Under the pieces are notes generated by a model. That model was not told the DNA's origin. It saw nothing but the letters and a program-made list of their open reading frames with translations, and did not search any database. Made by a program: the position numbers and the translations under genes. 9,639 nucleotides of DNA from Candidatus Fermentibacterota bacterium (GTDB lineage: Bacteria; JAFGKV01), in the NCBI GenBank assembly GCA_016928395.1, contig JAFGKV010000339.1:1-9639 (forward strand), written 5' to 3'. This document shows, piece after piece, positions 1 to 8,061 of the stretch (the first letter of the stretch is position 1; each line of letters starts with the position of its first letter).

Positions 1-84
1 ACCATCGATCATCAGCCCGCCTGGTCACCAGATGGGCGGACCATCGCCCACACACACGGATGGAACCGCGCCGGTGCCCTTTTG
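1..84 (+). pseudogene. 3'-truncated fragment of a TolB-like WSPDG (PD40) propeller protein
   Basis: Frame 1 is open from the window edge and reads ...QPAWSPDGRTIAHTHG..., with the WSPDG signature at codons 8-12 followed by the T-I-A strand that normally comes next in PD40 (WD40-like beta-propeller) repeats. The intact gene at 2826 contains six such repeats, so this is the same fold and perhaps a paralogue. The reading frame enters the transposon-end repeat at base 85 and continues as non-homologous sequence antisense to the transposase until a TGA at 178-180. No WSPDG-like continuation is visible just beyond the far end of the element (after 1172). I therefore read it as a host gene whose 3' end was removed or replaced when the element arrived. 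The 5' part lies outside the window, so full length and function cannot be judged. Confidence 0.6.
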
Positions 85-112
85 GGGGTCAAATCTTTAA
101 TCTATAATCTTC
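85..112 (+). repeat. RAYT-associated repeat, copy 1 (left end of the unit)
   Basis: GGGGTCA is followed by three tandem heptads, AATCTTT (92-98), AATCTAT (99-105) and AATCTTC (106-112). Read on the reverse strand, the repeat contains a stop codon in all three frames, and one of them (97-99) ends the transposase. It interrupts the propeller reading frame that enters from the left. Confidence 0.85.
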
Positions 113-1065
113 GGTCGGAGTTGAGCTTCCAGGTCTCGGATTCGTTGGGCCACGGCGGGGTCCCCATCGATGGCGTCTGACACGCGCCGGCATGCATGGC
201 TGACCGCGGCGGCCTTGATGCCGCCGAAGCGTTCGCCTATGGTGGCGTTGGTCAGGCGGCAGTGCCGCCACGTCAGATAGATCGCCACATCCCGTGCTTC
301 GTCACCCTTTCTGCCTCGTCTTCGCAGGTGCTCTGCAGCGCACCCATAGGTTGTGCCGACGGCTCTGGCCACGGCCTCCGGATTCACCGACGCGGCCTCC
401 ACCATGCGAGACACCTCGGTATCGAGGGGCTTCTCCTCGAGTTGCATCCGCATCTGTCGGACGAAGTCCTCGCCCCCCAGTAGCGCCCCATGCACGACCG
501 CATCAAGGGGAGATGGTTCGTCTGACGCCGTCAGGAACTGCAGGTAGCCTTCCCGCTGCTCCTGTGCGGTGCGCCCGAATCGCTCCAAGACCCATCCGGT
601 GGTGAGCCACGGGGGTGGCTCGACCATGCCCAGATAGGCACGGCAGCTCGACCAGTCATACTTCCATGGACGCCTCACCATACCCGCTCTGACGGGATTG
701 AGATGGATGTAGCGAGTGAGGGCCGAGAGATAGGATTCCGCCTCGATGACGGCGCTGTGGAACCGACCTTGGAACAGATACCCAGATCGTCGGTAACGCC
801 GGTTAAATGCTGAGGCATAGGTCTCGTTGAGCCATTGCATACTGCGGCTGAGATGACCCTCGGGGGTCTCGAGCTCGAGATGATAGTGGGTATCCATGAG
901 GCAGTAGGCGTGGACCAGCACGCCAAAGCGTTGACAGAGCTGCTGAAGTCTGGCGAGAAAGTCGAGGCGATCATCGTCGTCGCCGAAGATTGTGGTGCCG
1001 GCAACGCCGCGGGCGGTGATGTGGTAGTGGCCGCCAGGGAAGTCGATACGCAGTGGTCGGGCCAT
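97..1065 (-). CDS. REP-associated tyrosine transposase (Y1 HUH family) with DnaA-like C-terminal domain
   Basis: This 322-residue protein is an IS200/IS605-type Y1 transposase of the RAYT class, a single-strand DNA endonuclease that nicks and joins DNA at its cognate repeats. Visible hallmarks are the N-terminal MARPLRIDFPGGHYHITARG block, the metal-binding HUH motif H60-Y61-H62 within DTHYHLELE, the block GYLFQGRFHSAV, and the probable catalytic Y112 in ESYLSALTRYIHLNPVRAG. Residues from about 240 to 305 (ARDVAIYLTW...IGERFGGIKAAAVSHACRRV) resemble the helix-turn-helix of DnaA domain IV, a known fusion in this family. I chose the ATG at 1065 because it begins the conserved MARPLR block and has GGAG about 8 bases upstream; the upstream start at 1101 would only add 12 unconserved residues. 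The last codons (KIID-stop) are encoded by the left repeat. All key residues are present, so the enzyme could be active. A TATAAT lies in the right repeat (1149-1154, reverse strand) 84 bases before the start, but no good -35 is visible. Confidence 0.93.
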   Translation of the reverse strand: MARPLRIDFPGGHYHITARGVAGTTIFGDDDDRLDFLARLQQLCQRFGVLVHAYCLMDTHYHLELETPEGHLSRSMQWLNETYASAFNRRYRRSGYLFQGRFHSAVIEAESYLSALTRYIHLNPVRAGMVRRPWKYDWSSCRAYLGMVEPPPWLTTGWVLERFGRTAQEQREGYLQFLTASDEPSPLDAVVHGALLGGEDFVRQMRMQLEEKPLDTEVSRMVEAASVNPEAVARAVGTTYGCAAEHLRRRGRKGDEARDVAIYLTWRHCRLTNATIGERFGGIKAAAVSHACRRVSDAIDGDPAVAQRIRDLEAQLRPKIID

Positions 1066-1145
1066 GGCGATCTCCAGAGGGAAGGCACAGGGGGAGGACA
1101 CGTAAGGGACCTGGCAGGCATGTTAGGAGGAGTATCTGTCGCGTC

Positions 1146-1172
1146 AAGATTATAGATTGAAGATTTGACCCC
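1146..1172 (-). repeat. RAYT-associated repeat, copy 2 (right end of the unit, inverted)
   Basis: On the reverse strand it reads GGGGTCA, then AATCTTC, AATCTAT and AATCTT. It differs from copy 1 at one position (C for T in the first heptad). Together with copy 1 it forms the inverted ends of the transposase unit. It includes a TATAAT box on the strand that reads toward the transposase. Confidence 0.85.
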
Positions 1173-4033: not shown

Positions 4034-4214
4034 ATCATCGGTTCCATGCCGTGGCCCAAGTGGTAGTGCAGATCTCGTGGTTGTGTCCCAACCCTTGTGT
4101 GACTCGCGGCATAGGCGAATCAGACTCGAAAGACTCGCACCCCTCTCTTGTGCACAGACCAATCTCGGCCCTACCCACCGACCTGTCAAATCGCGATGGC
4201 CCTCTGTATGATTA

Positions 4215-4238
4215 TCAGATCTTCAATCTGCAATCTTC
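4215..4238 (+). repeat. RAYT-associated repeat, copy 3 (solitary, degenerate)
   Basis: TCA is followed by GATCTTC, AATCTGC and AATCTTC. It matches the copy-2 consensus at 21 of 24 positions but lacks the leading GGGG. It stands alone in the gene-free region, so it was probably deposited separately or is what is left of an older insertion. Confidence 0.75.
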
Positions 4239-6696: not shown

Positions 6697-7116
6697 CTAT
6701 AGCAGAACGAACGCACGGCCATTCGGGAGACGGTAGCGCGTGAAATCGGCAACGTCGGTGGTCATGATCACCACGATGCCTGTCTCGCACGCAAGCCAGT
6801 ACAGCGATGCATCGGCAAGATCCATTTCTCGCCTCGCCACCTCGGCGTATCGCTCCATCCAGCTCACCATCTCGCCTAAGTGACGTTCCTCGAACGGGTA
6901 CACCACCGCGCCTCCAGCCTCCAGCCAGCGCAGCAGCTCATAGCGCTGCGGCACGGTGAGGAGGTAGGATGCCTCGACTACGCACGGCCACGTCGTCATC
7001 AATTGAAGACCATGCCGTGACAATTCTGTCACGAGGGTATCGAAACGCCTATGATGGTGATCATCGACGGCGAAAAGCGCGATGAGAGGCCCTGCATCAA
7101 TCAGAACGCTTCGCAC
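6697..7116 (-). CDS. PIN-domain toxin (VapC-like ribonuclease)
   Basis: This 139-residue PIN protein starts MRSVLIDAGPLIALF and carries the expected acidic residues: D7, E48 (CVVEASYLL), D99 and D102 (EMDLADASLYWLA), and D121 with D124 (TTDVADF). It belongs to the PIN subfamily with the MDLADASL motif, distinct from the vapC at 1627. The start is a GTG at 7116 inside the last codons of the upstream antitoxin, overlapping it by 20 bases, so expression is probably coupled. It likely acts as an Mg2+-dependent endoribonuclease held inactive by the RHH partner. The sequence appears intact. Confidence 0.9.
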   Translation of the reverse strand: MRSVLIDAGPLIALFAVDDHHHRRFDTLVTELSRHGLQLMTTWPCVVEASYLLTVPQRYELLRWLEAGGAVVYPFEERHLGEMVSWMERYAEVARREMDLADASLYWLACETGIVVIMTTDVADFTRYRLPNGRAFVLL

Positions 7117-7647: not shown

Positions 7648-8061
7648 ATGACCATGAATACGGTGGGCGTCCGGGATCTGCGCCAGAAGCTCAGCACGTA
7701 CCTGGACGTCGCCAAGGCCGGACACAAGGTGGCGATCACCGAGCGCGGCCGCATAGTGGCACGGCTTGTGCCGCCGGAGGTGGACCCAGGAGACCGGTTG
7801 GAGGCTCTCAGGAATGCCGGATTGATCAGGTGGTCCGGTAGGCGGCTGCCTCCAGCTGAACCCGTGGCCCGGCTTCGTGGCAGGAAGCTTGTGGCGGAGC
7901 TCGTGTCGGGGGGGACCCTGTTGGGTCAAATCTTGAATCTACAATCTTCCCGTCCCGCCTCCGTGGCATTCGCGTCCCGTGTCCGGATCTCTCTCCATAC
8001 CAGCCTGGATTGCGCGAACCAGCCGGGCAATGACGGGGCGTTGAGAGTGAGCACCAAGTAG
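7648..8061 (+). CDS. Orphan Phd/YefM-type antitoxin with a repeat-derived C-terminal tail
   Basis: Residues 1-89 are a normal Phd-family antitoxin: MTMNTVGVRDLRQKLSTYLDVAKAGHKVAITERGRIVARLVPP, then GDRLEALRNAGLIRWSG and ending near RKLVAELVSGG, where VapC-linked relatives finish with an AELVxxDR-like end. After a run of seven G (7908-7914) the frame passes straight into the RAYT repeat, which encodes GQILNLQSS, and continues through non-homologous sequence to residue 137. AAGGAGG five bases before the ATG fixes the start. The PIN toxin that should follow within a few bases is absent, and nothing PIN-like is visible up to 8168. The module was therefore broken at the repeat, leaving an antitoxin with a foreign tail. 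It may still bind its operator; whether the fused protein is stable is unknown. An alternative is that a G-run slip makes it end at a TGA in the repeat. Confidence 0.8.
   Translation: MTMNTVGVRDLRQKLSTYLDVAKAGHKVAITERGRIVARLVPPEVDPGDRLEALRNAGLIRWSGRRLPPAEPVARLRGRKLVAELVSGGTLLGQILNLQSSRPASVAFASRVRISLHTSLDCANQPGNDGALRVSTK
7923..7949 (+). repeat. RAYT-associated repeat, copy 4 (in the 3' end of the Phd-type antitoxin)
   Basis: GGGTCA is followed by AATCTTG, AATCTAC and AATCTTC. It differs from copy 1 at two positions over the 27 aligned bases. Because the second heptad ends AC instead of AT, the TAA that copy 1 has in this frame is lost, and the antitoxin frame reads through it. Confidence 0.85.

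Follow-up and report, generated by a model that had tools for sequence, protein, structure and literature searches.

A two-part end of header and tandem repeats in a TIRYT transposon, with a likely division of labour between the HUH and DnaA-like domains of its transposase

The ends of the transposon described here have two parts, and each appears to follow a different domain of its transposase. We consider it likely that the HUH domain reads an outer header and that the DnaA-like C-terminal domain reads the tandem repeats lying inside it. The element is found in the window, by which we mean the whole 9,639-nucleotide stretch of DNA that was analysed. An earlier note on this DNA had observed heptad-array ends around a gene for a DnaA-like HUH transposase and had proposed that the DnaA-like domain reads the heptads. 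The observation is confirmed, and the proposal, which we judge to be probably right, is the best-supported reading of the ends. Its support comes from sequence comparison, which bears on how the ends are built, on the presence of heptads only where the domain is present, on the coupling between the two repeats of an element and on the separate tracking of header and heptads by the protein. New here are the two-part end, the domain-dependent repeat period and the comparative link between the repeats and the recognition helix.

The Y1/HUH transposase gene is bracketed by inverted repeats of 27 bp at 85-111 and 1146-1172. These end repeats are complementary at 26 of 27 positions and consist of GGGGTCA plus AATCTNN heptads. 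The features are as follows.

85 to 111, + strand: terminal inverted repeat at the gene's 3' side, with its header at 86-97 (GGGTCAAATCTT) and its heptads at 98-104 and 105-111
97 to 1065, - strand: transposase coding sequence, 322 amino acids when begun at MARPLRI; the frame is open to an alternative GTG start at 1101
181 to 381, - strand: DnaA domain-IV-like C-terminal domain, residues 229-295 (Pfam Bac_DnaA_C)
196 to 219, - strand: IKAAAVSH (residues 283-290), a segment of the recognition helix and the best tracker of heptad sequence along the protein
703 to 1029, - strand: Y1/HUH catalytic domain, residues 13-121, with HYH at 60-62 (Pfam Y1_Tnp)
1146 to 1172, - strand: terminal inverted repeat at the gene's 5' side, with its header at 1160-1171 and its heptads at 1153-1159 and 1146-1152
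4211 to 4238, + strand: solo end-repeat copy, degenerate and without GGGG
7920 to 7949, + strand: solo end-repeat copy reading TGGGTCA, within the ORF of a Phd/YefM-like antitoxin

The earlier note had described four repeats, each GGGGTCA followed by three tandem AATCTNN heptads. Two of the four are exact and the copy at 7920-7949 carries one change, but the copy at 4211-4238 has decayed. Tandem heptads are real, but there are only two of them. The first AATCTTN overlaps a header position conserved in the family (GGTCTT) and is therefore rejected as a third heptad, so that the repeat proper is the two heptads at 98-111 and 1146-1159. At up to three mismatches the end motif has three matches in the window, compared with none in 200 dinucleotide shuffles; genome-wide there are 17 copies at the same threshold and none of a reversed control pattern. 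Two more pieces of related elements, on C330 and C84, occur in the same genome. The claim that the repeats hold no internal hairpin stands: folding gave minimum free energies of 0.0 and -1.5 kcal/mol for the two window ends.

The neighbouring genes include several of toxin-antitoxin type. The frame of the Phd/YefM-like antitoxin ORF (7648-8061, + strand) runs through the solo repeat at 7920-7949, which there encodes GQILNLQSS; because the frame crosses the end repeat, the C-terminus of the antitoxin may have been replaced or lengthened by it. A VapBC-like pair adjoins the transposon (1358-2013, + strand), with a PSK_trans_fac antitoxin at 1358-1630 and a PIN-domain toxin at 1627-2013, and a second PIN-domain ORF (6697-7116, - strand) has no evident antitoxin directly adjacent.

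The identification of the protein as an HUH transposase with a C-terminus like DnaA domain IV holds at the level of both profile and fold. The IS200-like Y1_Tnp domain (E 4.9e-10) and Bac_DnaA_C (E 1.6e-10; 41.3 bits against a gathering cut-off of 31.5) score above their Pfam cut-offs, while the NCBIfam model REP_Tyr_transpos reaches 74.2 bits, below its curated cut-off of 80. An AlphaFold2 model with 69 relatives as input has a mean pLDDT of 91.3, and its best fold match in the PDB is 4er8, a RAYT bound to a REP hairpin. The C-terminal fold is shared with DnaA domain IV: compared with the DNA-binding domains of DnaA in 3pvp and 1j1v, it gives TM 0.88-0.89 (normalized to the target) and rmsd 1.7-2.2. 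A helix spans residues 285-301 of the model, and segment 283-290 forms the start of this recognition helix. Its counterpart in E. coli DnaA (1j1v) is the RDHTTVLH region, in which DHTT corresponds to KAAA of the window transposase. We reject the heptads as DnaA boxes, the best match to TTATNCACA being 4-5 of 8 positions, equal to shuffles.

The element belongs to a known, little-studied class, TIRYT, or TnpAREP subclass 2.1.2. In the text of Di Nocera et al. 2013 (PMC3733652), such units are named TIRtrons and their proteins TIRYT; GGGGWSAS is given as a motif of many ends, and genomes are described as also carrying end copies that stand alone or as dimers. The text of Quentin et al. 2018 (PMC6006769) assigns Bac_DnaA_C, HTH_23 or HTH_28 C-termini to TnpAREP subclass 2.1 and suggests the replication fork as a possible target of the DnaA-like domain, leaving open its recognition of the ends. 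As far as the TIRYT and TIRtrons are described there, the window element shares their HUH/Y1 domain and HTH C-terminus, their long terminal inverted repeats and their solo and dimeric end copies; it has Y1_Tnp, Bac_DnaA_C and 27-bp inverted repeats that are not REPs. The published repeats start GGGGWSAS. The window end GGGGTCAA agrees with this at 7 of 8 positions, its last base being A, and GGGGTCAG, the commonest outer-end form in relatives, fits it in full. Tandem heptads go unmentioned in the text of PMC3733652 and PMC6006769, and literature searches added nothing more on this matter.

Two other groups invite comparison. With the IS200/IS605 family (IS608, ISDra2), the window element has the Y1 HUH catalytic domain in common. 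Members of that family carry subterminal hairpins on one strand and are not known to have a DnaA-like domain; the window ends are without subterminal hairpins, which speaks against membership. Classical RAYT, or TnpAREP, systems (4er8; PMC8266576) share the HUH fold, and small non-autonomous inverted pairs, REPIN-like, occur in both, as does a short conserved tetranucleotide at the end, GTAG in the RAYT systems and GGGG in the window element. Their REPs are palindromic and are recognized as single-stranded hairpins, whereas the window ends carry direct repeats and form no hairpin. The crystallized RAYT-Ec (165 residues) also lacks the DnaA-like domain that the window transposase has. Since the ends do not fold and the repeat contains no GTAG, we rule out a RAYT with a palindromic REP.

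The same anatomy is found across relatives. These were taken with their flanks from whole genomes and named contigs, and inverted repeats, sought de novo with no motif assumed, were found around 146 of 189. For the 135 elements anchored on a G-rich start, the family consensus is a 12-nt header, GGGTCAGGTCTT, followed by two 7-bp direct repeats. Arm identity in this set holds to position 25, the end of the second heptad, and is near background beyond it; of the periods compared, none but lag 7 (z 13.9) stands out strongly, and control lags are not raised. Among 107 non-redundant elements, heptads 1 and 2 match at 3.70 of 7 positions within an element compared with 2.58 between elements (z 12). 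This coupling is strongest at the first four heptad positions, and the header has little or none of it. The heptad core is therefore element-specific and common to both units. The coupling was repeated in a later set (n = 9, z about 3) that stayed small under broader taxon sampling around G042, G171 and G187, at 2-9 genomes each.

Some twelve paralogous elements occur in genome G042, and most have a repeat core of their own (L079, L087, L089, L092-L094, L096, L098-L101 and L104), and this set is a natural test bed for the repeat code. At another locus, L393 (G000:C56), two direct end-repeat copies are separated by 41 bp and preceded by the same flanking sequence, so that repeat and flank have been duplicated in tandem.

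The heptads appear to depend on the presence of the C-terminal domain. Relatives of about 220-230 amino acids that are without it served as a control set, a small one of 24 anchored ends. They do have inverted ends, mostly starting GGGGAC, in which arm identity stops earlier; across the 24 anchored ends lag 7 has z 0.0 and heptad coupling is absent. These ends are often palindromic, as in AATACTGGGGACAGGCCCCAGTATT, and are more hairpin-prone than those of domain-bearing relatives, with a fold z of -1.76 compared with -0.36 (Mann-Whitney p = 0.006). The repeat period, in turn, varies with the type of domain. Elements whose proteins have the short C-terminal form (270-299 amino acids) show lags 7 and 8 mixed, and those of the long form show lag 7; the two forms differ at p 0.0014. 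A divergent domain-bearing group has 8- or 9-bp tandem repeats, such as TGTCAAGATGTCAAGA, with a lag 8 z of 9.5 that is descriptive only, since the group was put together by eye from two sources. Within it, Bac_DnaA_C is above cut-off in L403 and just below in L395, L398 and L408. Three relatives (L107, L102 and L104) possess the C-terminal domain, yet have palindromic headers and no clear heptads, and may be intermediates between hairpin and heptad ends; their ends are palindromic around GGGGTCAGACCCC or similar.

Header and heptads track different parts of the protein. In partial Mantel tests on the 107 non-redundant elements, heptads followed the HTH given HUH (r 0.19-0.22, p 0.001) and not significantly HUH given HTH, while the header followed HUH given HTH (r 0.27, p 0.001) and not significantly HTH given HUH; the linker added no signal. 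As a pattern of covariation this is a double dissociation, pairing the header with HUH and the heptads with the C-terminal domain. When the protein was scanned in 8-residue segments conditioned on HUH distance, residues 283-290 ranked first for heptads in both the full and the long set. Family-wise p for this segment was 0.0025-0.005 by permutation, also performed within HUH clusters (one of which holds 81 of the 107 members), and 0.003-0.03 when compared with simulations of heptads along the HUH tree; the segment came first in half of 100 random half-sample draws. For the header, the best segments lay in HUH strands 1 and 4, none significant family-wise, and RAYT-Ec contacts to GTAG have been reported in the same HUH region (PMC8266576).

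The covariation between helix and heptad is a small effect. The earlier note had suggested looking for it, and what emerges is divided: the helix is the best of all segments, at a family-wise p of about 0.003-0.03, but in phylogenetically independent nearest-neighbour pairs it does not predict heptad differences (r -0.09 for all, -0.31 for the long class). In such pairs the whole HTH relates weakly to the heptads, in the full set only (r 0.24, p 0.04). Nearest-neighbour prediction by the helix leaves 5.4 mismatches of 10 against a segment median of 5.85, a slight gain, and HUH neighbours predict equally well, at 5.34 of 10. The set is sparse, being filtered at 60% identity with identities to the window transposase mostly 30-40%, and heptad changes in it are near saturation. 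For the proposal that the DnaA-like domain reads the heptads, then, the occurrence of heptads only with the domain, the within-element covariation, the helix tracking alongside the header's tracking of HUH, and the co-occurrence of motif and transposase in genomes speak in favour. The heptads do not resemble DnaA boxes, and the small covariation, its absence from independent nearest-neighbour pairs and the domain-bearing members with palindromic headers speak against.

It is also conceivable, though we think it unlikely, that the HUH domain or a dimer surface reads the whole end, heptads included, and that the DnaA-like domain targets the replication fork, as suggested in the text of PMC6006769, or a host factor. 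The long class lends this some weight, as its heptads also track HUH given HTH (r 0.14-0.16; independent pairs r 0.43). However, domain-less relatives have the same HUH fold and no heptads, the best heptad tracker is the recognition helix, which the header does not track, and the period changes with the type of C-terminal domain. Far less plausible still is that the repeats are by-products of replication slippage or of A/T-rich low-complexity drift, with only the matching of the arms being required. The repeats are indeed short and A/T-rich, and both arms of an element are kept alike, but drift of this kind sits poorly with one sharp period in the main family, placed at a fixed distance from the header and ending with arm identity, and with a different period in the divergent clade. 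Nor do domain-less relatives with similarly A/T-rich ends have repeats, and control lags are flat.

Motif and transposase also occur together at the level of genomes, a point that the earlier note had suggested testing. Across 98 genomes, 16 of 18 that bear the heptad-type motif have the transposase, compared with 23 of the 80 others (odds ratio 19.8, p 3e-6). Several genomes contain gene-free mini-elements of 60-133 bp, in which two inward-facing ends surround unrelated sequence. Those of G175 differ in core (GAAATTT/GACTTAA and CACAATT/CACATTT), and in each case the core is largely the same in the two heptads and in the two arms. On one strand, the arms of such an element can pair with each other to give a long stem, which would show the heptads as double strand to the DnaA-like domain. 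We reject, as having next to no likelihood, a role of the heptads as promoter or operator of the transposase gene, under autoregulation by the DnaA-like domain and apart from transposition: most genes do have the 5' arm some 40-120 bp upstream, and TTGACA is contained in many heptads, which read TTGACATTTGACA, but the heptads are retained at both ends, although no gene starts at the 3' one, as well as in mini-elements that have no gene, and TTGACA is absent from the repeats of several lineages, the window element among them.

The search for a clean empty site found none. Window positions 1-68 are 93% identical to C106 and diverge from it 16 bp before the end repeat; the C106 stretch resembling the left flank (1-84) is PD40/TolB-like, and the window's other flank does not resume that gene. 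With divergence so early and the gene not resumed, no target site is readable. Carriage on 2 of 72,556 plasmids, one weak phage match and three loci on viral contigs are few, so that spread on such vehicles is not evident.

We propose a model for the two-module end in which the outer 12-nt header is bound by the HUH domain, which probably cuts next to it. The inner two tandem repeats would be read by the DnaA-derived C-terminal domain, probably as double-stranded DNA and with one domain per repeat, at a period of 7 in the window element and of 8 or 9 in its divergent relatives. Tandem repeats would thereby replace the single-stranded hairpin of classical RAYTs, and paired inverted ends would supply the double strand. 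The physical binding, its stoichiometry, the cut site and the double strand formed by paired inverted ends are what we infer.

In a broader context, we lean towards the view that a large branch of REP-type transposases has passed from hairpin recognition to a DnaA-derived domain acting on repeats. Such a branch would have a lineage code written by the helix, a period of 7, 8 or 9 set by domain type, and paired ends offering a double-stranded target in a single-stranded pathway. The end anatomy gives the DnaA-like domain a concrete target and predicts which half each domain reads, and the header with its fixed-period repeats provides a means of annotating such elements along with derivatives that have lost the gene. 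If the two-module reading is true, the ends of a widespread transposase group carry a double-strand code that is modular and evolvable, and the transition between hairpin and tandem-repeat ends would be traceable in living relatives.
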